Origin: Pseudomonadota bacterium
GTDB taxonomy: Bacteria > Bdellovibrionota > FAC87 > UBA2466
Direction: 5' to 3'
Assembly: GCA_009927165.1 (NCBI GenBank)
Contig: RFNO01000068.1
Span: forward strand, 1 to 64,000
DNA length: 64,000 nt
Both the position numbers and the translations under genes were made by a program. Under the pieces are notes generated by a model, which saw nothing but the letters and a program-made list of their open reading frames with translations, ran no database searches and was not told the origin of the DNA. This document shows, piece after piece, positions 17,636-34,652 of this stretch. The first letter of the stretch is position 1, and each line of letters opens with the position of its first letter.

Positions 17636-19342
17636 ATGGGATATACGATTCTTTTAAAGCCTTATTTTCTCATCTGTTTTGGTTCTGGCTTAGGAATGGG
17701 TGTTTTGGCTCTCTTACTGGGATCCGCTCCCTTTGTAGCTCCGCTTCTACTGGGTCTTAACAGTTCTTTTTATTTGGGTCTGGGTCTTTTAGGAACAGTT
17801 GTGGTCCTTTCCCTCTTTTCGAAACTCAGAGAACATATCGACTGGAAAGAAATATTTCGGCTTGGGCCGTTCTTCTTTGTGGGGGCTGGGGCCGCATTTT
17901 ATTATTCTTTTCAATTTTATTTTCGGTATTCGGGACTATTCCTGTTTGTGTCGGCCGTTGCATGGCTCTTCTCTGTGCCTTTTTTGCCCAGACACACTAC
18001 AAATCGCCAATTTCTCTTTTTTCCTTTTTTATCGAATGTCCTTCAAGGATTCCTGGGCGGACTGGTTGTGGGCGGACTGGGACTTGCGGGTCTTCCTTTA
18101 GTAACTCCTTTTCTCCAAATTTTTAGAAAAATGGATCGAAGCGCGGCAACCAGTACTTCCGTTCCCTTAAGTGCTCTATCTCTTATTCCGATGGTGTTGG
18201 TTCTATCCCTACATCCAGCAAGCCAAACCCCGCTTCAACCCAATAATCAAATGTTTCTCCTGGTGGGACTCCTGTTTGTGATGGGACTCATTTTTGGTCT
18301 TAACTTTGGAAAAAAACTACTGAAGTCGCTTTCTCCGCTGGTCATTTCGTTAGTACAAATCACAACGATTGTGCTCATGATTTTCGGAGGTTTTCGGCTC
18401 GTCGAGTCTTCCCTCCCCTGCTTTAGTCAAAACCCACTGACTTGTATCAGTTGCTTCCGCAGGCAGTCACAAGAATTGGGATGGAAATCCTTCGATTGGC
18501 TGACTGCTCTGAACGAACAACATCCCTCGATGGATATCGTGATTGATTCTTGTGGTTATCCAATGGGTTTTCATCGACCCAGCAATCGTCGTTCCGATCT
18601 GATTGTGGAACTCCCAGACCATTCCTTGTGGATGGGAATTGATAAACTCACGGGACGATACACGCAAACTTGGGATGGGTTGAGAACCAAACGAGTAAAA
18701 AAACAACGAGTGTATTTCACTAAAGACAATTGCAAAGGAGAAGCTGCTATTTCAAAGCGAAAACTAGAGACCCAAGTAGGCAGCACAATTTTCAATGATT
18801 CTGGTTACCGAGATGTAAAGGGATTGAGATCGGCTTTTTGGTATATCAGCTATCGCGATCCGGAAGGCGAGTGTGTAAGTCAAAGCGGAATGATTAAGGC
18901 ATCCTCTGACTTGGGGGTTTATGATTTGTCTGCTAGCACCCTGAAAACGGAATGGGGTGAACCCATTTTAGATGAAGATTGCTGCCACAAGTTTTCTCAG
19001 CCGGATCATTTTGAAAGTATCATTTATTTTTCTGATGAAGATTGTCAGAGTTCTCAAATAGCTACAGATGATGAAGGCGCTGGTAAGATAGGGCAATCGA
19101 TTCTTCACCATCAGGATAAGTATTATTTGACCAAAAACCTAAAATCGTTTTTTGAATACAAGAGTTATCGAGTCAGCGGTAAAGATTGTGTTAAACAAGA
19201 AGGGATCTTGTCTCCTTTGAGTGAACGTTTGGCTTTTTCAGTAGAAGAACTGGACCGTCCAGTCGACTTTTCTCAGCATCCCCCCTTATCGGTCAGGACT
19301 TTTCACTCAGGTGACTTTGATCTCTGGCTAGGAAAACCTTAA
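17636..19342 (+). CDS. TSUP-family permease fused to a repeated Cys-containing domain
   Basis: 568 residues. Residues 1-260 are an eight-helix TauE/SafE (TSUP) permease, including GGLVVGGLGLAGLPLVTPFL and a second hydrophobic half. TSUP proteins move sulfite, sulfonates or similar anions. Residues 270-568 are soluble and probably outside the membrane, with two similar units: VYFTKDNC...ECVSQSG (Cys 366, 413) and IIYFSDEDC...DCVKQEG (Cys 470, 518). The spacing inside each unit (47 and 48 residues) and the 104-105 residue offset indicate an internal duplication. The last 15 bp overlap the convergent flavoprotein gene. Substrate unknown. Confidence 0.75.
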   Translation: MGYTILLKPYFLICFGSGLGMGVLALLLGSAPFVAPLLLGLNSSFYLGLGLLGTVVVLSLFSKLREHIDWKEIFRLGPFFFVGAGAAFYYSFQFYFRYSGLFLFVSAVAWLFSVPFLPRHTTNRQFLFFPFLSNVLQGFLGGLVVGGLGLAGLPLVTPFLQIFRKMDRSAATSTSVPLSALSLIPMVLVLSLHPASQTPLQPNNQMFLLVGLLFVMGLIFGLNFGKKLLKSLSPLVISLVQITTIVLMIFGGFRLVESSLPCFSQNPLTCISCFRRQSQELGWKSFDWLTALNEQHPSMDIVIDSCGYPMGFHRPSNRRSDLIVELPDHSLWMGIDKLTGRYTQTWDGLRTKRVKKQRVYFTKDNCKGEAAISKRKLETQVGSTIFNDSGYRDVKGLRSAFWYISYRDPEGECVSQSGMIKASSDLGVYDLSASTLKTEWGEPILDEDCCHKFSQPDHFESIIYFSDEDCQSSQIATDDEGAGKIGQSILHHQDKYYLTKNLKSFFEYKSYRVSGKDCVKQEGILSPLSERLAFSVEELDRPVDFSQHPPLSVRTFHSGDFDLWLGKP

Positions 19343-20527
19343 ACTTTCAGCTGCCATTCTCCCTGAGCGCAATGCCCCATTAATTGACGGAGAAGCATAG
19401 CGGTCACCGCAGTAAACCACTCCCTCCCGGATTTCAAAACCTGACGTTTCTCCCGTTATCACTGGCAACGCCCGGGGAACTTGAGTTGTTGCTACCCAAT
19501 CCAGACCAAGTCGCTTACCTGCAACTTGTTCGACTTCTTGAGTGACTCTGGATAACTTCACTTCTTTTGACCCAATAGCACTCACACTAAGAAGCGGTTC
19601 ACCAGATGTCGAATAGGCCTTCGAAACTGACGAAATCAGAGCCATATGAGTAATTGCCATTCCCAAGCGGGGCGGAACTAAAACGAGCCATTTCTCCCAA
19701 CCCAATTGCGCAAGTTCAGGGGAAGTAAAATAGTAGGTGGTAACTTGTCGGAATTTTTCACCGGATGAACTTGAATTCATCTTTTCATCAAATGCACACA
19801 CGACTTGCGATGCTTCAATTGTTTCGCCGCTCTCCAGAATTACTTCTTTAGCAGTCCAAGACCTCACTGGAGAGTTTATTCGAATACTTTTCTTAGGTAA
19901 GTCATAAGCTATACTGAGGGGAAGTTGCTCCATTCCTCCAGCGGGAAGACAAACTTTTCCCCACCCAAAACACCGAACTAGAAACTGAAAATAATGGCTT
20001 CCTATGCTTAAATTGGAATCAAGATAAACTCCTCCTAAAAAAGGTCTCCAAAAATTTTCGATAAATCCAGGACTAAAACCAAATTTTCTCAAAAATTCCA
20101 AAGTGGATATTTTACCGAGCGGAGTATCGGTTTTGAAGCGTTGCGAGGAAAGCAGCAAGGAAACGACCAAAGCTTTATCCTTAAACGAAGCGTAAGGAAA
20201 AGAAAGTGTTCTGAATACCTTTTGAGGGTGTCGGAACGGGTTGGCTAAAAGATCCAAGCGCTCGCCATTGAAAATAAGAGCACCTGAATTAAATGACTCA
20301 AGATGGAGGGAATCTAGTGATACCGTCGTTTTCAGCTCAGGATAAGAGCTTAATAGGACCTGAAAACCCTCATCAACCAAAAACCCTTTCTCTGTCCGAA
20401 AAGAACTGACTCTTCCACCGACTTTCGGTTTGGCTTCTAAGACCAGAATAGTTTTTCCCTGCTCGCTTAAGCTCTTTGCACAGGCCAATCCCGCTAAACC
20501 TGCCCCCAAAATAACCACTGGCTTCAT
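19328..20527 (-). CDS. FAD-dependent oxidoreductase (phytoene desaturase/amine oxidase-like)
   Basis: 399 residues. The Rossmann FAD motif is at the N-terminus (VVILGAGLAGLACAKSL, then VLEAKPKVGGRVSSF), with the flavin-family C-terminal motif YCGDRYASPSINGALRSGR. This is the phytoene desaturase/protoporphyrinogen-oxidase superfamily. It has no carotenoid neighbours beyond a HpnB/CrtQ-like glycosyltransferase 7 kb away. Substrate unknown. Confidence 0.8.
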   Translation of the reverse strand: MKPVVILGAGLAGLACAKSLSEQGKTILVLEAKPKVGGRVSSFRTEKGFLVDEGFQVLLSSYPELKTTVSLDSLHLESFNSGALIFNGERLDLLANPFRHPQKVFRTLSFPYASFKDKALVVSLLLSSQRFKTDTPLGKISTLEFLRKFGFSPGFIENFWRPFLGGVYLDSNLSIGSHYFQFLVRCFGWGKVCLPAGGMEQLPLSIAYDLPKKSIRINSPVRSWTAKEVILESGETIEASQVVCAFDEKMNSSSSGEKFRQVTTYYFTSPELAQLGWEKWLVLVPPRLGMAITHMALISSVSKAYSTSGEPLLSVSAIGSKEVKLSRVTQEVEQVAGKRLGLDWVATTQVPRALPVITGETSGFEIREGVVYCGDRYASPSINGALRSGRMAAESLRFS

Positions 20528-23209: not shown

Positions 23210-24232
23210 TCAGGAATTTAAAAGAACTACTTTTCCGAAATTTTCTCGATTCTCGATATATTGGTGGGCTTTAGGAGCATCTGTAAAGCTGAACTCTTTA
23301 TCAATGGTAATATTTAGTTGTCCAGCTTTGTAGAAAACCAAAAGCTCTTTCATCCATTCGCCCAAAAGTGAGAAAGATTTTTTCCATAGGGTTGCGAGAT
23401 TAAATCCTGCTAATGCCATATTCCCCTGAGCCAATTGAAAAAGATCAGCGGTATACCACTGCCCCGCCCCACTGGGCCGAGCACTTTTTCCTGTCGTAAG
23501 TTCGTTAAGGCTATTCGCAAAACCGAACGCTATTAATTTTCCGAGAGGTGAAAGAAGCTGCAACCCTTGAGACCAGCTTTCTCCACCCGATGAGTCAAAG
23601 ATAAAATCAAACCCTTTGGAATTACTCAGTTTCATTAAATCGCTTTCCAAGTTATTGCTCCGAGCATCGACCAATTGGGAAAATCCTCTTGCTTTCAAGC
23701 GTTCATGTTTTTGAATCGAGGCAATTCCATACGGCGACGCTCCTGATATCTTACAGAGGTCAAAGAGAGCCAATCCCACTCCCCCGCCGGCAGAATGGAT
23801 TAAAACGCGGTCTCCCTTTTTAATACGGGCCATTTTAAAGGCCATACCATAAGCAGTGAGATAATTTACGGGCAGTGCTGCCCCTTGTGAAAATCCCATT
23901 CCCTGAGGCAACTCAAACACTTGCTCTTTTGGAACACAGACTTTAGTGGAGTAACCTCCAAAAAATACTGGGGCCAGAACTGACTTGCCCTGAAGGCCAC
24001 TATCTTCTTTTTTACCCACCGCTTCAATTACGCCACTAACCTCATAACCCACCACCATAGGCGGCTGGGGAGCTTCGGGGTAACGCCCTCTGCGAGCTAG
24101 AATGTCAGAAAAATTTATTCCTGCAGCTTTTACATTAATTAACACTTCACCTGCTTGCGGGGAGGGATCTTGGGCCTCTTTTACCATTAAGACTTCAGGG
24201 GCACCTTTTCGAGTTATCCAAATCTGTTTCAT
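23210..24232 (-). CDS. Medium-chain reductase of the quinone reductase/VAT-1 type
   Basis: 340 residues. N-terminal GroES-like half (EVLINVKAAGINFSDIL, PMVVGYEVSGVIEAVG) and Rossmann half (RVLIHSAGGGVGLALFDLCK), the family signature. Lacks catalytic zinc ligands. An NADPH-dependent enoyl or quinone reductase is likely. It is divergent from the acyltransferase/PKS operon and shares a palindromic -10 region with it. It could supply the enoyl reduction missing from that synthase (inference). Confidence 0.82.
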   Translation of the reverse strand: MKQIWITRKGAPEVLMVKEAQDPSPQAGEVLINVKAAGINFSDILARRGRYPEAPQPPMVVGYEVSGVIEAVGKKEDSGLQGKSVLAPVFFGGYSTKVCVPKEQVFELPQGMGFSQGAALPVNYLTAYGMAFKMARIKKGDRVLIHSAGGGVGLALFDLCKISGASPYGIASIQKHERLKARGFSQLVDARSNNLESDLMKLSNSKGFDFIFDSSGGESWSQGLQLLSPLGKLIAFGFANSLNELTTGKSARPSGAGQWYTADLFQLAQGNMALAGFNLATLWKKSFSLLGEWMKELLVFYKAGQLNITIDKEFSFTDAPKAHQYIENRENFGKVVLLNS

Positions 24233-24279: not shown

Positions 24280-25389
24280 ATGTTAATGAAACAAAAAACA
24301 TGGCCTGCTTTGGAGCTTTTTAAAGCCCTAGCCATTGGTACCATGGTGATTAATCACAGTTGGGGAAAAATAATTTCTCAACAGGAAATTGGGCTTCACA
24401 AAAACACGTTCAGTCTTAATTTGGCAAATGCCATACACGCGCTCTTTTTTTTCAACATTTGGATACCCGCCCTTGCGGCTAGTTCGCTTCGCTTGCAATC
24501 GGAACTGATCAAAAACGTCCCGGGCACTCATTCCTCCCCACCTCGGCTTGCCCTCAAATGGGGAATCATTCTGTGGATTTCAGGTTACGTGTTTTCCTTT
24601 TTCTCTAAGGAATCCTTAACTTTTTTCATGTTCAATCCTCTTCATTTTTTAGGTCTAAGCTTTTTTCTTTTGGCCTTACTGATTCGATTTGTGCCACGCA
24701 AATTAAACTGGCCCATTTCTTTAGCTTTTGTTGGTCTTTCTTTTTTGTTTTATTTGTTTAAAAACTCCCTGTTTCAATTCCCGGAAATTTCCCCATATTT
24801 CGCTCCCGATGTCTCTTTGATTCAGCGTATGCAATTCTTTGCCCTCGAAATACTCTTTGGCACTCCGCGAACGGGCTGGTCGGTTTTTCCTTGGTTTTCA
24901 CTCTGTTTGATTGGCTATTCCTTGGCTGATAGTTATGTGTATCTCAAAGGGGAGTCCAAACTCTTCCGAAAATTCTCCGCTATTAGTTTTTTGGTTGGAA
25001 TCTCCGGACTTCTCTTTCCTTCTTCCTTTGATTTTATAAAACAACAGGATATTTCCGGTGAATTGCTCATGTTGTTTATGCCTTTCGGCTTATTTCTAAG
25101 CGTAACAGCGGGATATGTCTTTTTTCTAACTCTTTTTTCTTTGTTCTATCATGGAATCAAAGAACCATGGGCTCTTTTGATTAACTCGTTATCTCGGGGT
25201 TCCTTTTGGATTTTTTTTCTACAGTTTCCTCTTATCTCCAATTTTTCTATCCCATTTCAAGACACCCCTTTTGAGATTCGGCTTTTTGTATTTCCTCTGT
25301 TGGTGCTTTTGTGGTGCTTTGGCATCGGTTTTTTTATTTTAGAACTCAGTAAAAAACAGCTCACCATTAAAATTCGAAAGGATGGCTAA
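24280..25389 (+). CDS. Integral membrane acyltransferase-like protein
   Basis: 369 residues, about ten membrane helices, resembling the DUF1624/heparan-glucosaminide acetyltransferase-like and acyltransferase-3 superfamily (ALELFKALAIGTMVINHSWG near the N-terminus). Two ATGs lie at the start (24280, 24286). It overlaps the next gene by eight bp (ATGGCTAA), so it belongs to the polyketide operon. It may transfer the acyl product or a sugar-linked group across or within the membrane (inference). Confidence 0.7.
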   Translation: MLMKQKTWPALELFKALAIGTMVINHSWGKIISQQEIGLHKNTFSLNLANAIHALFFFNIWIPALAASSLRLQSELIKNVPGTHSSPPRLALKWGIILWISGYVFSFFSKESLTFFMFNPLHFLGLSFFLLALLIRFVPRKLNWPISLAFVGLSFLFYLFKNSLFQFPEISPYFAPDVSLIQRMQFFALEILFGTPRTGWSVFPWFSLCLIGYSLADSYVYLKGESKLFRKFSAISFLVGISGLLFPSSFDFIKQQDISGELLMLFMPFGLFLSVTAGYVFFLTLFSLFYHGIKEPWALLINSLSRGSFWIFFLQFPLISNFSIPFQDTPFEIRLFVFPLLVLLWCFGIGFFILELSKKQLTIKIRKDG

Positions 25390-27418
25390 GATAATGGTTT
25401 TTCGCGAGCCTATCGCTATCATTGGAGCTGGGTGTTTATTACCGGGTGCTGTTGATATTTCCGCTTACTGGCGCCTTTTAATTTCGGGAAAAAACCAGTT
25501 CCGGAAACTAGCTAAAGAACGATTCCATCCGGATGTGTTTTTATCTCCTGAGTTTAATTCCCCAGATACCAGTTACTCGGACCAAGCAGCATTTGTTGAT
25601 GATAGTTCTTTCTTCTCCAAAGAAGATCCTCTTCCCAGAGGACATCAGATGCTACTAAAAGCCCTTAAAGAAGCAGTGGACCCATTACCTAACGGCTATT
25701 TTAGCGGCAAAAAGATTCAAATTATTTTGGGGTGCATGAATCCCGAGGACTTGTCCGCTGAGAGCCTCTTAAAAGCAGAACAAAAAGAAATTATCGAGGC
25801 TATTTTAAACCAGGGCAAAACGAGGTCGGAATCACTTTCAATTATAGAAAAGCAATTTGAAGATTTGTTTGGAAATGCTTCCACCGATCCAAGCATTCAT
25901 TATCCGAGCTCTCTAGGAACGGTCGTTCACGATTTTCTTAAAACGCATGGCCCTGCTTACTGCGCCGATTCAGCTTGTGCTTCTTCCTTAACAGCCATAG
26001 AGCTTGCAGCGCTCACTTTAGATTCGAGAGAAACAGATCTTGTCATTTCGGGGGGAGTTGAGAGCAATCTTGGGATAGAAACTTACGTTCCATTCAGTCA
26101 CTTAGGTGTTCTCTCGAGAAATCAATGTCTACCCTATGACGAGCGAACCGACGGAATCGTTCAAGGTGAAGGGGCAGTGGTTTTTATTCTTAAAAGATTG
26201 TCGGATGCCTTGAAGGCAAAACTTCCGATTTGGGGAGTAATCGAAGGAATCAGTAGTTCGAGTAACGGATCAAAGGCAAGTCTCTTTTCCCCCTCTTTTG
26301 AAAGTCAAAAACGCATTTTTGATGGCCTCAACCAGGAATTGGGCCAATCCAAAGTTCATTATGTCGAAGGACATGGCACCGGAACACCTGTGGGCGACTT
26401 AGCCGAGTTGACCGCTCTCCGAGACGCCTTTTCAAGTGCCGCGGACCCGATTTACTTGGGATCGGTTAAATCTCTAATCGGTCATACGAAAGGAGCTGCA
26501 GGGGCTGCAGGACTCCTTAAGTGTTTGCTAGCCATCAAGCATCGAACGATTCCCCCTTCGCCCTATTTTAAGCAGACCCCGTTGCGAGAGAAATCGAAAC
26601 CCTTTCTGATAAATTCGACAGCGATATCCGTGGGTGATGTGGCAGAGCCTCTTCGAATGCGAGTTTGCAGTGCTGGTTTCGGCGGGGCCAATTATCATTT
26701 GGCGATCCGGGAGTTTCAGGGAGAAATGCAAGGCCTCCCCCAAACAGTAGTTCCTCAGGACGAAATCTGCCTAGTGGGTTTTTCGCAAGTTTCCTTCAAT
26801 TTGTCCGAGCCCCAACTTAAGGGGTACTCTTGGAAAATCCCCCCTAACCTGCTGAGCAATCTAGATACTTCACAGGTTTACTCTCTTTTAGCACTTGAAA
26901 AAGCCATTGAGAGCAGTCTGATTTCTTTCGAGCGATTGGACAAAACTCAAATCTGCATCATTTCGGCATCTCACACACGAACTACAAAAATAGAAAATCT
27001 CACCCGTAATCTACAGCTCAAAAAACTAGAAAAAGCACTTCTTGTTTCTCATTTCCCAGAAGCTGCTCTGATTAAGAATTATCGATCGTCATTAATCACT
27101 TTAGACGAAACCAGTTGCCAAAGTTTGAATAGCATGACCAGCGGCCGGGTAGCCAATGAGTTTGACTTACAGGGCTGCAATTTCCATTTAGATGCGGATT
27201 TTTCTTCCTTGCCTGTTGGAATTAAAGTCGCTGAACTGTTGCTCAGAAACGGAAAATGCCAAATGGTCATTCTTTTCAATGTGGGAGAGAGCACCAAAGA
27301 CAACCCCATTTTAATATCCCGCGAAGCCATGAGCTGCTGGATTTTCTCCACCAAAAGATTTTCTCAAAACCAAATGCTTCCCATGTTGGGAACACTGGAT
27401 ACGATTGAATACTTATGA
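25382..27418 (+). CDS. PKS/PUFA-synthase-like subunit: KS plus KS-like domain
   Basis: 678 residues. Residues 1 to about 440 form a complete ketosynthase: Cys199 in DSACASSLTAIEL, His331 in EGHGTGTPVGD, His368 in LIGHTKGAAG. Downstream, LLALEKAIES to the end resembles a second KS: TSGRVANEFDLQG is kept, but NFHLDADFSSLP sits where the nucleophile loop should be, so the active Cys is absent. That is what a chain-length-factor-type domain looks like (PfaC-like). No AT, ACP or TE is in this protein; they follow in the next gene. The ATG overlaps the membrane-protein stop. A second ATG at 25394 is possible. Confidence 0.85.
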   Translation: MAKIMVFREPIAIIGAGCLLPGAVDISAYWRLLISGKNQFRKLAKERFHPDVFLSPEFNSPDTSYSDQAAFVDDSSFFSKEDPLPRGHQMLLKALKEAVDPLPNGYFSGKKIQIILGCMNPEDLSAESLLKAEQKEIIEAILNQGKTRSESLSIIEKQFEDLFGNASTDPSIHYPSSLGTVVHDFLKTHGPAYCADSACASSLTAIELAALTLDSRETDLVISGGVESNLGIETYVPFSHLGVLSRNQCLPYDERTDGIVQGEGAVVFILKRLSDALKAKLPIWGVIEGISSSSNGSKASLFSPSFESQKRIFDGLNQELGQSKVHYVEGHGTGTPVGDLAELTALRDAFSSAADPIYLGSVKSLIGHTKGAAGAAGLLKCLLAIKHRTIPPSPYFKQTPLREKSKPFLINSTAISVGDVAEPLRMRVCSAGFGGANYHLAIREFQGEMQGLPQTVVPQDEICLVGFSQVSFNLSEPQLKGYSWKIPPNLLSNLDTSQVYSLLALEKAIESSLISFERLDKTQICIISASHTRTTKIENLTRNLQLKKLEKALLVSHFPEAALIKNYRSSLITLDETSCQSLNSMTSGRVANEFDLQGCNFHLDADFSSLPVGIKVAELLLRNGKCQMVILFNVGESTKDNPILISREAMSCWIFSTKRFSQNQMLPMLGTLDTIEYL

Positions 27419-30400
27419 AACGCACACTCCGCTCATCTCATACCTCCGGCTATTTGGGACATTTTGAGAGCAAGGGTTTATTTAATTCTGGATTGAAGTG
27501 GTCGATTGAAGCTGTTGCTGAACCCCTATCTTCAAAAATTTGTTTCGTTTATCCGGGACAAGGGGCGATGTTTTCTGGAATGGCAAGAGGTTATGAAGCC
27601 AGTGAGATTTTTTCATCTTTTTTCAAACGAGCTGATTTTATTCTTTCTCGTACAGGATTTCCCTCTGTTTCTCACTACGCTTTTTCACCGGAACTTCTCA
27701 CTGTTGAAGCGTCTGATAAAATAGAGTCCGTAGCCCTCTTTACTTTCTGCTGTGCTCTGACCCACGAATTGGTTCGCGCCGGTTTCAGACCCGAAGTCGT
27801 TACTGGACATAGCTTCGGAGAATATGCTGCCCTCGTAGCCTCTGGCATTTGGGACTTTGAAACAGGACTTGAGTGCGTTCTTCAGAGGGAGCGTATTTTA
27901 CCTGAAAGAAATTCAGCCGGTTACATGCTGGCAGTAGCAAAACCAGTGCACGAACTAAACCAAGCTCTTTCCGGGATTCCTTTTTATCTGTCTAATGTCA
28001 ACTCACCCAATCAGACTGTCATTTCCCTTTCTTGGGACCATTTGATTGATGCGGAAACTCGTCTAAAGAAAACAGAAACGCGCCACAAACGACTTTCTAG
28101 CCCACAACCTTTTCACTCTCCATTGCTCAATCCCGCAGCACAAGCAATGGCCAAGTTTGCTTCCCAACAAAGCCACTCCTCACTGAGGAGAACTGATTTC
28201 TTCTCGGGGGTTCTGAAATCGTGGACTCTGGGTGGCCCTGGAAACGAAAAGCAGATCGAACGGATTGTCAGTACGCAGCTCGTCGAACCCGTAGACTTTC
28301 CCCTTCAAATTCAATCAATCGCCAAACGCTGTCAGCACTTCATCGAAGTGGGACCACGCCCTTTTTTGCTCGATCTCATCAAATCTAATTTGAATTCAAA
28401 GGACTTTACTTGTTCCGCAGGATTAGGCCTCATTAAGCTGAATGACCGTCAGGAATCACAGCGACTCATTAGAAGGGAGGAAGTTAATGAAGGCATCCTC
28501 CGACGAGTGAATACCATTATTGCTAAAATCACTGGGTACTCCTTTGAGGAAATTAAATTTGAAGATCGATTTCAAGAGGACTTAGGAATTGACTCCATCA
28601 AAACTATGGAAATTTCGATCGAGCTCCTGAATGAATTTCAATTGCCTCGGGATGTACTGACTTCAGTACAACAAGTAAAATCTGTAGGTGAGCTCGCTTT
28701 TCAAGTACAACGACAAAGGGATAAGAAGCCCGTTGGCTCGGAAGTACCTCTCAAGACAACCCAATTTCAAGTTTTCAAGAATACATGGTTCCCTAGTCCC
28801 CTCAACGAAACATTCCTGACTGATTTCACTTTCGCAAAACACAGTTTAATAGTAGCTAACGGCCGAGAGTGTTGGAGCAAGCTGAAGGGAAGAAACCTAT
28901 CAACTATTCAGTTTTTAATTCTCTTCTTTGATAAACCGATTGAATTGAGCTTTAAGTCAATTAATCTTGAGGCTTTTTGCGAATGGTTTCTCGGATTTCA
29001 AAAAGCAGCAGGCTCAGGACTCATCAATAACTCAACAAGAATTGCTGTCATCAGCACTGAGCCAGAGGACCCTATGGCTCAAACTATTGCTTCATTCTTG
29101 TTTTCAATAAAAAAAGAGAATGCCATCCGTTTTGCAACACACATCGTTTTTGATTCATCCTACGCGCGCAAGGAGCAGGAGCAACTCGCCCTGAAAGAAT
29201 TACGGCTGGGAAGCGATAACCGAGTTCGCTACCAAGACAGCAAACGACAAGTGCTGAGTCTTGAGCCCGTCCCGGTAAGCACAAGTGGGAAAGAAAACAA
29301 GCAAACCTTTATCGCGCTGGGCGGGGCCAAAGGAATTACCTTTGAAATTGTGAAACACTTGGTTTCACAACATTCTTATGATGTTCACTTAATCGGACGA
29401 ACCCCCTCAGAAGACCCAGAGGTTCAACGCAATCTGATGGAACTCAAGGCTTTTGGTACCCAGGTCAGTTATCATCAAGCTGATGGAACTGATTTCCCTG
29501 AATTGGAAAAAGCCTTCCGTCTAATTTTTGAGCAATCAACGTCTGTTTCTGGAGTACTACAAGGTGCAGGAGCTGAAAGCAGTCGAAGTTTTTCTGAAAA
29601 AAGCCAAGAGGACATTCGCGATGAGTTTTTTGCAAAAGTTCAGCCAACCCTCAACTTGAAAACTCTGGCAGATCAGTTTGGAATTAAAAATCAGATTCTT
29701 TTTTCATCGATCATTGCCCATTTTGGGAACTTGGGCCAATCGATTTACTCGGCGGCCAATAATCTCTCCGAAAACATGTGGTACTGGCGAGCCGAAAAAG
29801 GAGCGATAGTCATTCAATGGCCTCCCTGGGAAGCAACAGGAATGACAAAAAAACCGGTTATTGACCAAGTATTACGTCAGGCAGGTGTTTCGCTTCTTCC
29901 CAAAGACCAAGCGGGAAAGTTTTTTGATAGCTTTCCTGTGGAACTCGGAAAAATGATTTTTGATGCAAACGACTTTCTTCTCTACCAAGGACCACTTGTG
30001 GATTGGGGCCGGCTGGGCTTTGGAGAAATTTCTGCTCTTCCCCTAAATTCAAAGCTCCAATTAAAACTGTCCCTTTCAACAGAACGTTTTCCAGTGCTGA
30101 AGGATCATTCTATTGAAGAACGAACTCTTATGCCAATTGCTTTGGTCGGATTTGTTTTTGATGAAACTCGATTTCTTTTGGGGCTTTCCACAACAACAGT
30201 GAGCCAACTTCACATGTATCGCCCCTTTGAAGTCGACCACCATTCGAAAAATCTTTTTTTGTCAGTGAGCAGACAAGAAGCCAATACCAATCGGATCAAT
30301 TTGGCGCTTTTTGATGAGTCTGGACTGTTGGCCGAGGCATCGACTGGGGAATTTACTTCTAATAGGAACCCACAAAAGCGCAATGATGGACAAGCATTAA

Positions 30401-30810
30401 AGAAGTATGGCCCCGAGGAACTCTATCGAAAAGAGCGCTTATTTCACGGACCCCATTTTCAGTTTCTGAAGCGTTTGAGCATTTATGAAAATAAAACAGC
30501 GAAGGCTGAGATTGATTGTCAAAAGATCAGACAAGCTGGACAGCCTACTTGGTATGTTTGGACTGGTTTAATTGATTCCGGTTTACAAGCTTTAGCTGGG
30601 GTAGGCTTTCATTTCTTTTCGGGGGCTGGCTTACCCGTTGCCATTGGAGAAATTGAGCGGTTGGCAAGCCCTTCTGAAAATGATGAACTTAGTTGGGAGA
30701 TCACTCATGTCAAAAATGAAGACAGAAAGCTGTCAGCAGACTTGACACTTAAGAATCAGAAAGAAGAAGTGCTCGCACACATCTACAGCGCCAGTTTTAA
30801 TTGGAAATGA
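27415..30810 (+). CDS. PKS/PUFA-synthase-like subunit: AT-ACP-KR-DH
   Basis: 1131 residues, overlapping the previous gene by ATGA. In order: an acyltransferase with Ser133 in GHSFGEYAA; an acyl carrier domain with phosphopantetheine site Ser394 in GIDSIKTMEI; a ketoreductase with NADPH loop GGAKGIT at 636 (the PfaA-type form) and catalytic Tyr778 in SIYSAANN; and a dehydratase double hotdog with His898 in DHSIEERTLMP and Asp1054 in DSGLQAL. The DH HxxxGxxxxP has Glu for Gly. One ACP is unusual for PfaA, which has several in tandem. No enoyl reductase, thioesterase or phosphopantetheinyl transferase is seen nearby. Product unknown; a modified fatty-acyl or polyketide lipid is most likely. Confidence 0.88.
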   Translation: MKRTLRSSHTSGYLGHFESKGLFNSGLKWSIEAVAEPLSSKICFVYPGQGAMFSGMARGYEASEIFSSFFKRADFILSRTGFPSVSHYAFSPELLTVEASDKIESVALFTFCCALTHELVRAGFRPEVVTGHSFGEYAALVASGIWDFETGLECVLQRERILPERNSAGYMLAVAKPVHELNQALSGIPFYLSNVNSPNQTVISLSWDHLIDAETRLKKTETRHKRLSSPQPFHSPLLNPAAQAMAKFASQQSHSSLRRTDFFSGVLKSWTLGGPGNEKQIERIVSTQLVEPVDFPLQIQSIAKRCQHFIEVGPRPFLLDLIKSNLNSKDFTCSAGLGLIKLNDRQESQRLIRREEVNEGILRRVNTIIAKITGYSFEEIKFEDRFQEDLGIDSIKTMEISIELLNEFQLPRDVLTSVQQVKSVGELAFQVQRQRDKKPVGSEVPLKTTQFQVFKNTWFPSPLNETFLTDFTFAKHSLIVANGRECWSKLKGRNLSTIQFLILFFDKPIELSFKSINLEAFCEWFLGFQKAAGSGLINNSTRIAVISTEPEDPMAQTIASFLFSIKKENAIRFATHIVFDSSYARKEQEQLALKELRLGSDNRVRYQDSKRQVLSLEPVPVSTSGKENKQTFIALGGAKGITFEIVKHLVSQHSYDVHLIGRTPSEDPEVQRNLMELKAFGTQVSYHQADGTDFPELEKAFRLIFEQSTSVSGVLQGAGAESSRSFSEKSQEDIRDEFFAKVQPTLNLKTLADQFGIKNQILFSSIIAHFGNLGQSIYSAANNLSENMWYWRAEKGAIVIQWPPWEATGMTKKPVIDQVLRQAGVSLLPKDQAGKFFDSFPVELGKMIFDANDFLLYQGPLVDWGRLGFGEISALPLNSKLQLKLSLSTERFPVLKDHSIEERTLMPIALVGFVFDETRFLLGLSTTTVSQLHMYRPFEVDHHSKNLFLSVSRQEANTNRINLALFDESGLLAEASTGEFTSNRNPQKRNDGQALKKYGPEELYRKERLFHGPHFQFLKRLSIYENKTAKAEIDCQKIRQAGQPTWYVWTGLIDSGLQALAGVGFHFFSGAGLPVAIGEIERLASPSENDELSWEITHVKNEDRKLSADLTLKNQKEEVLAHIYSASFNWK

Positions 30811-30819
30811 GAAGCCTAC

Positions 30820-32511
30820 TTAAGGGCTCGACGATTTCATCGCATCTAGAGTCGAATTACTGATGTTAGGACAGTCCGCTCCGGTAACAGTGCTGGTCAG
30901 CGCTCCAGAAAAAGATCCGGTCAATCTACAACCAGTGGATGAAATCGTGACATTGTTTCCTAGGATGGTGCCCGTACAGGCTCCAGTAAAACTGACAGAA
31001 ACATTCGAGAGTGTTCTCGAAGTTGGAGTCGGAAGTGTACCAGAAAATGTACCGTCCAAACTGGTCCCTGTACCCACCGCACTTCCGCTGACGCTCGTCC
31101 CGCTCTGAGTCAGGGTGAACTGGAGTCCTTGCGCAAAATTACCCCCGTCCACTTTCTGGCCACTTAAAAGCCCAAGAAAGCTTCCTTGAAAGGGCAGATT
31201 CACATCTCCACAAACGGTCGGCGTTGCCACAATTGGGGCTTGAATGACTTCTTGGAAAGGAGCTGAATCCACGTTGATGACACCCGTGTAGTCGATGTTG
31301 TGAAGCTGAGATGTCGGGCAAGGAGAGGGCCAATTCACACCCTTCGTATATTGACCCAGGGGCTCACACGAGGCTGTCGCATTCAAAGTACCCTGAGTGC
31401 AATAAGGAAGGTCTCCTCGGTTGGTCGGTTGCCGTAAAGTATAGCCGCTCGGACACGTGCAGACTTCTGCTACACTCCGGCCTGCGATGGGAACTTCACA
31501 CGCTGCAAAGGACACTTTCAGTTGATACCGATACTGTTGATCGAAAGCAGGGTTTGACGTAGCAGGATTTGGCTTGGTTAAACTCAATCGAGTAATGGTA
31601 ACTACCGGATCAGTTTCAGGAAAAAGAACCCCTCCTTGAGAATAATCCAACGAAACACTGCCTTTGGGATACTTCAATTGCTTTTGCGGTACTTTTACTT
31701 TGACCGCCGAAGCAGGAGGAAGATACAAAGCGGCAATCGTCTGATCATAGTTGTAATACTTCTCACCGACCCTGCAACTTACCGATGCTCCCGTGTTCGC
31801 ATATTCCAACCCTGCATTGATGCAAACATTTATTGTTTTAGGAATAGGACAGTTGATTCCCTTAGGCACCAAGTAAGAGTCCAGATTAAATCGTCCCCAT
31901 TGATCCTTAGCAGCGCAGAAAGTAGTCACCGTCGAGGTGAGCGGAGTACAAGGTTTTATATCATATTTGCTGGCAGCTGGCATGGTTTGGGTTGTGCAGG
32001 TCTTTGCGCTACAAACCTTTGGGTTGAAGGGAATATTCTTTCTACACGGGCTGGCGGAGGCGGGGCTCCCACAGGTGTTATGTTGACTTGTGCCTGAAGG
32101 ACAACTACACACCTGTCGACTGCATTGGGTTCCCGAAAGGGTATATGTTGTATTCGAACAAAAATAGACCAGCGAATTACTTTGGCATTTTCCATGGTTG
32201 GGACCCCCAACTATTTTGGTATAACCCGGTGGGCAACTACAAATGGAATTATGGGTGATAGGCGTAATCTTAGCCGGGAGAGGAGGATCTTGAAGGCCCA
32301 CGGCTTCCGGATACCGAGAAGCTAACTGGAGATCTGTAAAAATTCTAGCCAGTAGGGGTTGAAGCAGGCCTTGATACTCAACGTTACGAGTGGTCTTATT
32401 TATTAAGACCTTTTGTTGGTTAGTGGAATAAATCGCCCAACCAATGGCGATGACCGATGCAGTGGCAAGTGTCATCACTAGAACGATTGTTCCAAACCCA
32501 TTTTTCTTCAT
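30820..32511 (-). CDS. Cys-rich PilX/GspK-like minor pilin-like protein
   Basis: 563 residues. The N-terminus MKKNGFGTIVLVMTLATASV is a pilin-like hydrophobic segment after Gly5, but position +5 is Val rather than Glu, as in PilX and GspK-type tip pilins. The ectodomain is rich in cysteines with repeated CSCPPGY/CSCPSG/CTCPSGY-type motifs, then a Ser/Thr/Gly-rich tail (TSVSGSAVGTGTSLDGTFSG). Divergent from two further prepilins. It is probably exported and placed at a pilus tip or cell surface. Convergent with the PKS gene, nine bp away. The adhesive or sensory role is inference. Confidence 0.7.
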   Translation of the reverse strand: MKKNGFGTIVLVMTLATASVIAIGWAIYSTNQQKVLINKTTRNVEYQGLLQPLLARIFTDLQLASRYPEAVGLQDPPLPAKITPITHNSICSCPPGYTKIVGGPNHGKCQSNSLVYFCSNTTYTLSGTQCSRQVCSCPSGTSQHNTCGSPASASPCRKNIPFNPKVCSAKTCTTQTMPAASKYDIKPCTPLTSTVTTFCAAKDQWGRFNLDSYLVPKGINCPIPKTINVCINAGLEYANTGASVSCRVGEKYYNYDQTIAALYLPPASAVKVKVPQKQLKYPKGSVSLDYSQGGVLFPETDPVVTITRLSLTKPNPATSNPAFDQQYRYQLKVSFAACEVPIAGRSVAEVCTCPSGYTLRQPTNRGDLPYCTQGTLNATASCEPLGQYTKGVNWPSPCPTSQLHNIDYTGVINVDSAPFQEVIQAPIVATPTVCGDVNLPFQGSFLGLLSGQKVDGGNFAQGLQFTLTQSGTSVSGSAVGTGTSLDGTFSGTLPTPTSRTLSNVSVSFTGACTGTILGNNVTISSTGCRLTGSFSGALTSTVTGADCPNISNSTLDAMKSSSP

Positions 32512-32524
32512 CGACTTAACCTTT

Positions 32525-32540
32525 GTGTTAATTTTAACAC
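32525..32540. promoter_or_regulatory. Inverted repeat in the pilin divergent promoter
   Basis: GTGTTAA-TT-TTAACAC, seven-bp perfect arms, just upstream of the -35 of the 32587 promoter and downstream of the start of the minus-strand transcript. A likely regulator-binding site; the protein is unknown. Confidence 0.5.
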
Positions 32541-32543
32541 GTA

Positions 32544-32576
32544 TTGTTATCCTTGAATAGACCCGGTATAATTATA
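32544..32576. promoter_or_regulatory. Divergent sigma70-type promoter with palindromic -10
   Basis: Plus strand: TTGTTA (32544-32549), 17 bp, TATAAT (32567-32572). TATAATTATA (32567-32576) is an exact palindrome, so the minus strand also has TATAAT at 32576-32571. The plus ATG is 14 bases after its -10, implying a leader of about eight nt with no ribosome-binding site. Confidence 0.65.
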
Positions 32577-32586
32577 GAATAATAAC

Positions 32587-33906
32587 ATGATGACTCCGCC
32601 AAAAAGTAAATCGGGCTACGCGTTCATAGAGCTGGCAGTTGCTGGAGCAGTAGCCGGCACTGCCATGTTGGGTCTTGTTTCTGCGCAAGGATTACTGAGT
32701 AAACAATCCGGTAGCTTGCAAGTCGTGGCAGATTCGATTTCCGAACATCAAAGCATCAACAATTTTGTCACGGGTATTCCGCTGCGAGAAGCCCTTTCAG
32801 TGTTTTGTTTGCCCCATCCCTGGGGCTACTACACTAAAAACACTAAGGGATCAGATGCTTGCATCAGTTTGGAAGCAGCAACCTTATGGCCCAACCGAAC
32901 CGATGGCATGCCGGGTCCCGGCCCCTATCGGCCAATGCAATGGGGCAATCTCTCAGCTGCCTATCAGCTTTTTGTGAGAGGCGTTTCGGCTCAAAACGAA
33001 CTCACTCCGTTGGGTGGAAAATATCTGACTCAAGAAACTGTGGCCTGGGAGAACCCGACGACGGGTATCCGCGGTCGTTTAACCGATGCCGGATGTATGC
33101 AGTGCCATAACGGAAGCTATAGCGGCCTTCGCAATTTTGGAAGTTACTCAGCTATGTTGCAATCTCCGACTCTAGTGAGCCGCTACGGCTTAGGAAGTAA
33201 AATGGGGCGGTACTTACTGCCAACAACCGGAGTCCAGATACTTTCGGGTGGCCGTGATCCGATGCCAGAGCAAACCGTAAAGCGAGAACACGAAATTCAG
33301 TTTTTTAAAAGGTATCGGTCTATTTCCACTGGCACAACGGTTTCTAATACGTTTAAATGCGAAGCGATGGATCTCACCGGGTCTCGTCACGCAGGGTATT
33401 GTGGACAGGTCTACTGTGGTCCAAACTGCTTCTACAGACAATATGGTGGCACCTATAATGTTTGTGCTGGTGGGAAAAAAGATGGGTTTGATTGTCACTG
33501 CGAACAGTACTACAAGTGTTTGTGCCCCAAGCCCGGTTTAACGGCAGCATCCGTTACCTGTGACTCTGGCTATGTACCCAACGGCATTTTCTACCCGGCT
33601 GTTCAATCTCCCGATGCTAGATTTGCGCTCTGTGAATCGATTTCTCAGTTGTCGAATGTTTCTGGATATAGTTATTGGGAATGCACGCCCATTGCCTCTG
33701 AGACGGTCTACCAAATAGATCCTGTAACGAATGAGCCGATACTATCTGCTGCAAACAGGAATACGATGCAGACTCGTTGGTCAGTGGAATATAAAATCAC
33801 GACTCGTTGGTGGACGAGAGGGAATGTGTCGGAATCTTTTGACTACTCACCGGACAGTTCAAAACCTGGCCCTAACCGCGTGATTAGCTTTGGAGCTCTC
33901 AAATGA
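32587..33906 (+). CDS. Prepilin-like protein with a CxxCH motif
   Basis: 439 residues. The N-terminus is a prepilin: SKSG|YAFIELAVAGAVAG, with cleavage after Gly10, Tyr11 as mature residue 1 and Glu15 as the +5 glutamate. The ectodomain is Cys-rich (YCGQVYCGPNCFYRQ, CHCEQYYKCLCPKPG). CMQCH at residues 170-174 fits the haem c attachment motif. Start by two adjacent ATGs after a strong -10. It overlaps the next prepilin by ATGA at 33903. Minor pilin, PilV/PilW-like in position, is the best call. Confidence 0.75.
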   Translation: MMTPPKSKSGYAFIELAVAGAVAGTAMLGLVSAQGLLSKQSGSLQVVADSISEHQSINNFVTGIPLREALSVFCLPHPWGYYTKNTKGSDACISLEAATLWPNRTDGMPGPGPYRPMQWGNLSAAYQLFVRGVSAQNELTPLGGKYLTQETVAWENPTTGIRGRLTDAGCMQCHNGSYSGLRNFGSYSAMLQSPTLVSRYGLGSKMGRYLLPTTGVQILSGGRDPMPEQTVKREHEIQFFKRYRSISTGTTVSNTFKCEAMDLTGSRHAGYCGQVYCGPNCFYRQYGGTYNVCAGGKKDGFDCHCEQYYKCLCPKPGLTAASVTCDSGYVPNGIFYPAVQSPDARFALCESISQLSNVSGYSYWECTPIASETVYQIDPVTNEPILSAANRNTMQTRWSVEYKITTRWWTRGNVSESFDYSPDSSKPGPNRVISFGALK

Positions 33907-34652
33907 AAAAACCTCGAGGGATTAATCTGATAGAACTCATGGTGGTGATGGCGATCATGGGGGCTACTGTTCCCTGGTTATCGTACATGTGGGCAAGCTT
34001 TAACAAAACAACTGCCGAATCGTTATCAAAAGCCACACTAACTGGCCAACTGATTGCTTCCGTGAAAAGTTTACAAAGCTTTCTCGGAACAGCCACCAAT
34101 ATGGCAGCCACACAGGTCCCCGGAACTGCGACAGAGGCCGGTAAACTCCTGGCCGGACAAGGAGCAGTCGTCATTCGTGTGGATTTTCGAGAGCTCACTC
34201 AAACCTGTCAGAATTTTTCTCCCGCTAGCACACTGACCGGCAATTTAGCCACAGCGGCACTCAGTTGCTGTGACCCTGCCAGACTCACCATGAGCGCTGC
34301 TTGGCCTCGGGCAACTGGCCTCTTGCAGATTAAAAATGCGTGTGGAAAGGATTGGGGGCTCACGGTCGTAACCTATAGGCCTAATGGTACCGTCTTCAAT
34401 TCTCGGTGCATTCGAGGAATTACTGATTTGTATCTCTTCCAATCGGGAATTGATTCGCTCAAAGGCAGCAGTGCTCTTTATACTTTTGATTTGGCCGGAC
34501 AAACTTCTTTTGATTCTCTGGGTAAGCCCATGGATAAACAAAAAGTTCGAGCAACTTATACTGGCTCATTAGGCAATTTCATGTCGACCACGTCAGCTGG
34601 GACTGCTTTCTCGGGATCTCCCTATGTCACCTGTGGCAAAGGCCAATTTTAA
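33903..34652 (+). CDS. Prepilin-like minor pilin
   Basis: 249 residues. MKKPRG|INLIELMVVMAIMG is a textbook prepilin leader: Gly6 cleavage, Glu11 as +5. The ectodomain has several cysteines (TQTCQNF, ALSCCDPA, IKNACGKDW, SRCIRGI, VTCGKGQF). Coupled to the CxxCH prepilin by ATGA. The peptidase and assembly genes are not in this window. It ends in a four-base overlap with the convergent sensor kinase. Confidence 0.85.
   Translation: MKKPRGINLIELMVVMAIMGATVPWLSYMWASFNKTTAESLSKATLTGQLIASVKSLQSFLGTATNMAATQVPGTATEAGKLLAGQGAVVIRVDFRELTQTCQNFSPASTLTGNLATAALSCCDPARLTMSAAWPRATGLLQIKNACGKDWGLTVVTYRPNGTVFNSRCIRGITDLYLFQSGIDSLKGSSALYTFDLAGQTSFDSLGKPMDKQKVRATYTGSLGNFMSTTSAGTAFSGSPYVTCGKGQF

Follow-up and report, generated by a model that had tools for sequence, protein, structure and literature searches.

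The window, by which we mean the whole 64,000-nt stretch of Bdellovibrionota DNA analysed here, carries three ORFs on the forward strand, at 24280-25389 (369 aa), 25382-27418 (678 aa) and 27415-30810 (1131 aa), and both their number and the outer limits of 24280-30810 are exactly those given in the first-pass annotation. The first ORF overlaps the second by 8 bases and the second overlaps the third by 4 bases, as in a translationally coupled operon, and scans for promoters and terminators gave results no better than chance. The first ORF encodes a putative membrane acyltransferase, the second was found by Pfam to hold the N and C halves of ketoacyl-synt, and the third to hold Acyl_transf_1, PP-binding, KR and PKS-type DH domains. 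A thioesterase domain is absent from the Pfam domain content of the set, as had been claimed earlier. One Sfp-type PPTase is encoded elsewhere in the source genome.

The product of the third ORF (27415..30810, + strand), as read from Pfam and the family alignment, consists of an AT domain (27526..28449) with S133 and H234 in place, a single ACP (28486..28704) with the phosphopantetheine serine S394 in the motif LGIDSIK, a KR domain (29287..29949) with S765, Y778 and the cofactor loop GGAKGI, and a double-hotdog DH domain (30022..30807; PS-DH/PKS_DH_N) with H898 and D1054. The earlier description of this protein as AT, exactly one ACP, KR and DH is therefore accurate, and its catalytic residues are intact.

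The second ORF starts with a complete ketosynthase (KS) domain (25382..26731, + strand, residues 1-450; PF00109/PF02801), whose triad of C199 (25976-25978), H331 and H368 is intact in the alignment columns of all 18 related KSs. Behind it lies a pseudo-KS, KS' (26738..27415, + strand, residues 453-678), which matches PF00109 only. The nucleophilic cysteine is absent from the KS' of every member, being replaced by F607 in the window (within DADF), and the domain can be aligned solely to the N-terminal half of a KS, with the C-terminal half missing in all members. The first-pass annotation, which had described a full KS followed by a nucleophile-less second KS-like part, was thus right about the complete KS and the lost cysteine, but the second part is a half domain only.

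What then could half a KS do behind an intact one? An AlphaFold model of the KS-KS' protein, made from the family alignment, has a pLDDT of 80 and a pTM of 0.88 and folds KS' as one thiolase half; the arrangement of the two domains in it was built on 8 sequences and may be biased towards KS dimers. Its top match in the PDB is the KS-CLF (chain-length factor) didomain of PfaC (6riw; E 1.8e-37, TMq 0.77, 766 columns), while the next match (E 7e-30, TMq about 0.53) corresponds to the KS alone and the others listed lie around 0.5. Because the model fits the PfaC KS-CLF far better than other PDB entries, KS' is best read as half a CLF, predicted to occupy the CLF position and to pack as in PfaC. 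Of the features that mark a KS-CLF didomain, the protein has an active KS and a nucleophile-less partner, and by prediction the PfaC-like packing, but not a full-length CLF.

By sequence, KS' appears to derive from a PfaA-type KS. Its profile scores 75-91 bits against PfaA-type KSs, with further PfaA-type KSs in agreement, compared to at most 26 bits against the own KSs of these proteins, which rules out a recent copy of the own KS. In a tree of KS N-terminal halves, based on a short alignment and with mixed support, the Bdellovibrionota KS' group adjoins the PfaA-type KSs. The simplest history would be that of a PfaA-like KS-AT-ACP-KR-DH protein in which the original KS shrank to half a domain while another KS was added in front. 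ApeC, the CLF of aryl polyene synthases, also retains the first thiolase half alone (PMC8358021), but KS' being an ApeC homologue can be dismissed (hhalign probability 0.2%; PF00109 vs PF13723). As ApeC belongs to PF13723 and shares no profile similarity with KS', the halving of the two appears to have occurred independently.

For the KS itself we compared PfaA-type, PfaC-type, modular, ApeO/ApeR and FabF KSs. KSs that have half a CLF behind them form a single group in every tree (98-99% bootstrap). Within it, the Bdellovibrionota members form a clade of their own (support 100/100), joined at 98/96 to the remaining half-CLF KSs, which are from Azospirillum, Paraburkholderia and Streptomyces plasmids. 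The window KS belongs to none of the PfaA-type, PfaC-type, modular or FabF groups sampled, in a reference set without HglE and HglC, type I FAS or the well-known Shewanella and Moritella Pfa proteins. The phylogenetic comparison proposed in the first-pass annotation thus yields a separate clade, with the same reservation for HglE and type I FAS, and no placement within a known lipid pathway, which had been named as a possible counter-argument, came up.

The PfaA model TIGR02813 scores the two proteins at 218 and 122 bits, compared to a cut-off of 1010 and to 1297 for a positive control; this score, the single ACP instead of tandem ACPs, and the KS tree together lead us to reject a plain PUFA synthase. 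A related reading is that of a reduced PUFA or secondary-lipid (Pfa) synthase, in which a PfaA with a half-decayed KS and a second KS fused ahead of it makes free fatty acid destined for phospholipids, the membrane acyltransferase being incidental. The resemblance of KS' to PfaA-type rather than own KSs would fit, the KR-DH part does align with the C-terminal end of TIGR02813, and PfaB also has a half KS' (residues 1-255) ahead of its AT (PMC12895367). However, the TIGR02813 scores remain far below the cut-off, the own KS lies outside the PfaA and PfaC clades, only one ACP is present, neither a FabA-type DH/I nor a PfaD-type ER was found in the window cluster, and the acyltransferase co-occurs with the synthase, and we regard this reading as improbable. 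Of the claim that the locus encodes a compact, PfaA-related synthase cut down from the PUFA type, the compactness, the kinship with PfaA and the tie to a membrane acyltransferase stand; "cut down" does not fully describe a synthase with a KS of its own clade and a half-CLF KS'.

The arrangement is conserved well beyond the window. Of the 15 genomes of its order that were analysed, eight encode the KS-KS' protein: seven belong to the window's family, where the six relatives are 45-56% identical to it, and the eighth (32%) to a sister family. Members of the window's family with long enough contigs all keep the order of a reverse-oriented MDR gene, acyltransferase, KS-KS' and AT-ACP-KR-DH. KS-KS' is matched over its full length in 17 of 369 genomes searched across the phylum, from several families. 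Most of these 17 have the AT-ACP-KR-DH gene beside it; two systems fuse the whole synthase into one chain of 1825-1843 aa. Many of the distant systems also have an acyltransferase homologue, a membrane protein of 420-460 aa (profile-profile 99.7%, E 4e-25). Since homologous, syntenic sets are present in 17 genomes, a chance assembly is excluded, and the search for the same gene order in relatives that had been suggested has thereby found the order conserved within the family and the gene pair across these genomes.

Other synthases of the phylum look different. In one group (four loci; proteins of 1576-2118 aa), the second KS-like domain behind the KS is full-length; it keeps its cysteine, as seen in two genomes, and the group forms its own KS clade (100/100). 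Four loci from other families encode large PKS and NRPS-PKS proteins, two of them with a glutamate-1-semialdehyde aminomutase-like domain and one of these two also with an adenylation domain.

Upstream of the set, and divergently transcribed, lies the gene for an MDR-superfamily NADPH reductase of the QOR/VAT-1/PIG3-like kind (23210..24232, - strand; Pfam ADH_N/ADH_zinc_N), a candidate trans enoyl reductase (ER). It adjoins the synthase set in all relatives of the window's family whose contigs are long enough to check, and an orthologue (56-74% identity) is present in 7/7 genomes of that family with the synthase and in 0/7 genomes without it; it is missing from the distant two-gene systems of the phylum. 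Most of its profile can be aligned with the PKS ERs of CurK (153 bits) and JamJ (131 bits), and scores are higher against the quinone-reductase types VAT-1 (238 bits) and QOR (162 bits). Mainly because of adjacency and co-occurrence, and further because of the resemblance to PKS ERs, we propose that the MDR protein acts as an enoyl reductase in trans. The higher VAT-1/QOR scores, the divergent transcription and the lack of the gene in distant systems count against this role, and the genomes behind the co-occurrence are related and not independent. The first-pass annotation had stated that there is no enoyl reductase; this is correct for the synthase proteins, which have no ER domain, but doubtful for the locus given this conserved, co-occurring gene.

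If the MDR protein were an unrelated quinone reductase, the synthase could make a conjugated polyene, like the aryl-polyene or flexirubin systems, with the unsaturated acid esterified to a membrane anchor. Such a product would agree with KR and DH domains without an ER domain, with the distant systems that do without the MDR gene, with the half-size CLF as in ApeO-ApeC (PMC8358021), and with acyltransferases being thought to anchor aryl polyene acids (PMC8253772). Yet the KS branches apart from ApeO/ApeR, KS' does not belong to PF13723, no aryl-starter genes (ligase, methyltransferase) were noted, and the MDR gene tracks the synthase in the window's family. We consider a polyene product unlikely.

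Flavin enzymes are encoded near several of these loci. In the window, a flavin amine oxidase-family gene (124 bits) is located at 19328-20527, some 4 kb ahead of the synthase genes; the loci of close relatives showed no conservation of it with the cluster. Many distant two-gene synthases without an MDR gene (L101-L110) have an FAD amine-oxidase-like gene of about 500 aa beside them. A common role for the two was dropped, as they match over some 45-60 N-terminal residues, the Rossmann motif.

On its own, the acyltransferase of the first ORF (24280..25389, + strand, 369 aa) reaches 22 bits for Acyl_transf_3, under the Pfam cut-off of 31. Of seven members of its family, however, six match Acyl_transf_3 and three match HGSNAT_cat, and the predicted fold (pLDDT 82) has probability-1 matches in the PDB only to human HGSNAT and to palmitoyl-CoA-bound GWT1. 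Furthermore, K15 and H26 are invariant in the family and correspond to the R/K-X10-H motif in TM1 that characterises AT3 enzymes (PMC7448272). Because relatives and predicted fold agree, we place the protein in the TmAT superfamily (HGSNAT/AT3-type) despite its sub-threshold score, and predict acyl transfer as its activity. Within the order, the gene is present in 8/8 genomes with the synthase and in 0/7 without it, counts that come from 15 related, non-independent genomes, and it adjoins the synthase in every locus of the order that could be checked. As such, the "coupled membrane acyltransferase" of the first-pass annotation is well founded.

TmAT enzymes carry an acyl group across the membrane onto an extracytosolic acceptor (PMC12423673), and most AT3/HGSNAT enzymes that have been characterised transfer acetyl groups (PMC7448272, PMC12423673). 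The latter would favour a reading in which the window TmAT uses a short acyl-CoA such as acetyl-CoA and is merely co-regulated, with the synthase product being released and used otherwise. Its strict co-occurrence with the synthase and the 8-base overlap with the KS gene argue against this, as does GWT1, the other confident fold match, having been solved with palmitoyl-CoA bound, and we find it distinctly unlikely.

To the reading that we prefer, we give about an even chance: a self-contained, iterative type I lipid or polyketide synthase, linked to a transmembrane acyltransferase that transfers the acyl chain to an extracytoplasmic acceptor. In this scheme the AT would load malonyl onto the single ACP, and the KS would carry out the condensation together with its partner in the same chain, KS'; this half CLF would stand in for the second KS of a homodimer and shape the substrate pocket. 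The KR and then the DH of the second protein would turn the product into a 3-hydroxy and subsequently an enoyl chain, whose double bond the neighbouring MDR protein may reduce in trans in some or all cycles. As there is no thioesterase, release of the chain would be by transfer; the simplest recipient would be the TmAT protein, which would move the acyl group across the membrane onto an extracytoplasmic acceptor. We infer iteration, the ER role of the MDR protein and the direct hand-over to TmAT, and likewise a partly reduced acyl chain as the product and an envelope sugar, LPS or a protein as the acceptor. In the literature searched, hand-over of an acyl group from an ACP to an AT3/TmAT enzyme is undocumented, the donor used being acyl-CoA, mostly acetyl-CoA.

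Directly downstream of the synthase, at 30820-34652, the window has three type IV prepilin-like genes with N-termini such as GINLIELMVVM, and prepilin-like homologues also lie behind the synthase in four relatives. No match to the middle gene turned up in order members without the synthase, though these sequences are highly divergent. Since AT3 enzymes are able to modify pilin glycans (PMC9558356), a functional link between these genes and the synthase/TmAT pair is possible. A bolder version of the preferred reading, to which we assign a low probability, is a make-and-export unit, in which the finished chain goes directly from the ACP to TmAT and onto a surface molecule of Bdellovibrionota, conceivably the neighbouring pilin-like proteins. 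If true, this would combine the use of acyl-ACP by a TmAT enzyme with half a CLF derived from a decayed PfaA KS. Apart from this bolder version, the gene set would bring secondary lipid synthases to a mostly uncultured phylum that includes predators, in a form close to the minimum that keeps KS, AT, ACP, KR and DH together. It also provides another half-size CLF besides ApeC that seems to have arisen independently, here fused to its KS, making the question of how much CLF a KS needs testable within a single polypeptide. The genetic linkage of synthase and TmAT would give a handle on the export of long acyl groups.

Taken as a whole, the gene set is a conserved arrangement of known types of parts in an apparently undescribed combination. 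No description of the four-gene combination including a half-size CLF was found in the open-licence literature, which is weak evidence of novelty, and an earlier characterisation of the same set, the other objection foreseen in the first-pass annotation, did not turn up in the papers searched. The set shares with PfaA the domain order AT-ACP-KR-DH and the origin of KS' from a PfaA-type KS, with PfaC the KS-CLF didomain, and with PfaB the half pseudo-KS, which in PfaB precedes the AT. It differs from Pfa systems in its one ACP, its half-size CLF, a KS outside the PfaA and PfaC clades, and its TmAT partner, and it fits none of the 20 Pfa cluster types as outlined in the text of PMC3098273. The type R secondary lipid cluster (KS-MAT-CLF-ACPs-KR; PMC3098273) is similar in joining a single-chain PfaA homologue with an extra CLF, and different in having the CLF behind the AT, several ACPs and a PPTase partner. 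ApeO-ApeC likewise pairs a KS with a CLF of the first thiolase half only, but as free-standing type II subunits, with ApeC in PF13723 and KS' in PF00109 only. The five Azospirillum, Paraburkholderia and Streptomyces proteins of the sister KS clade also have a half KS' behind their KS, whereas their AT is in front or on another gene and their partner genes differ. The Azospirillum locus with AT and KS-half-KS' has two fatty acid desaturases, a PPTase and an RND pump alongside. Finally, the window TmAT resembles HGSNAT, GWT1 and AT3/OafA of the TmAT superfamily in its predicted fold and K-x10-H motif, and unlike these it is coupled to a dedicated acyl synthase.
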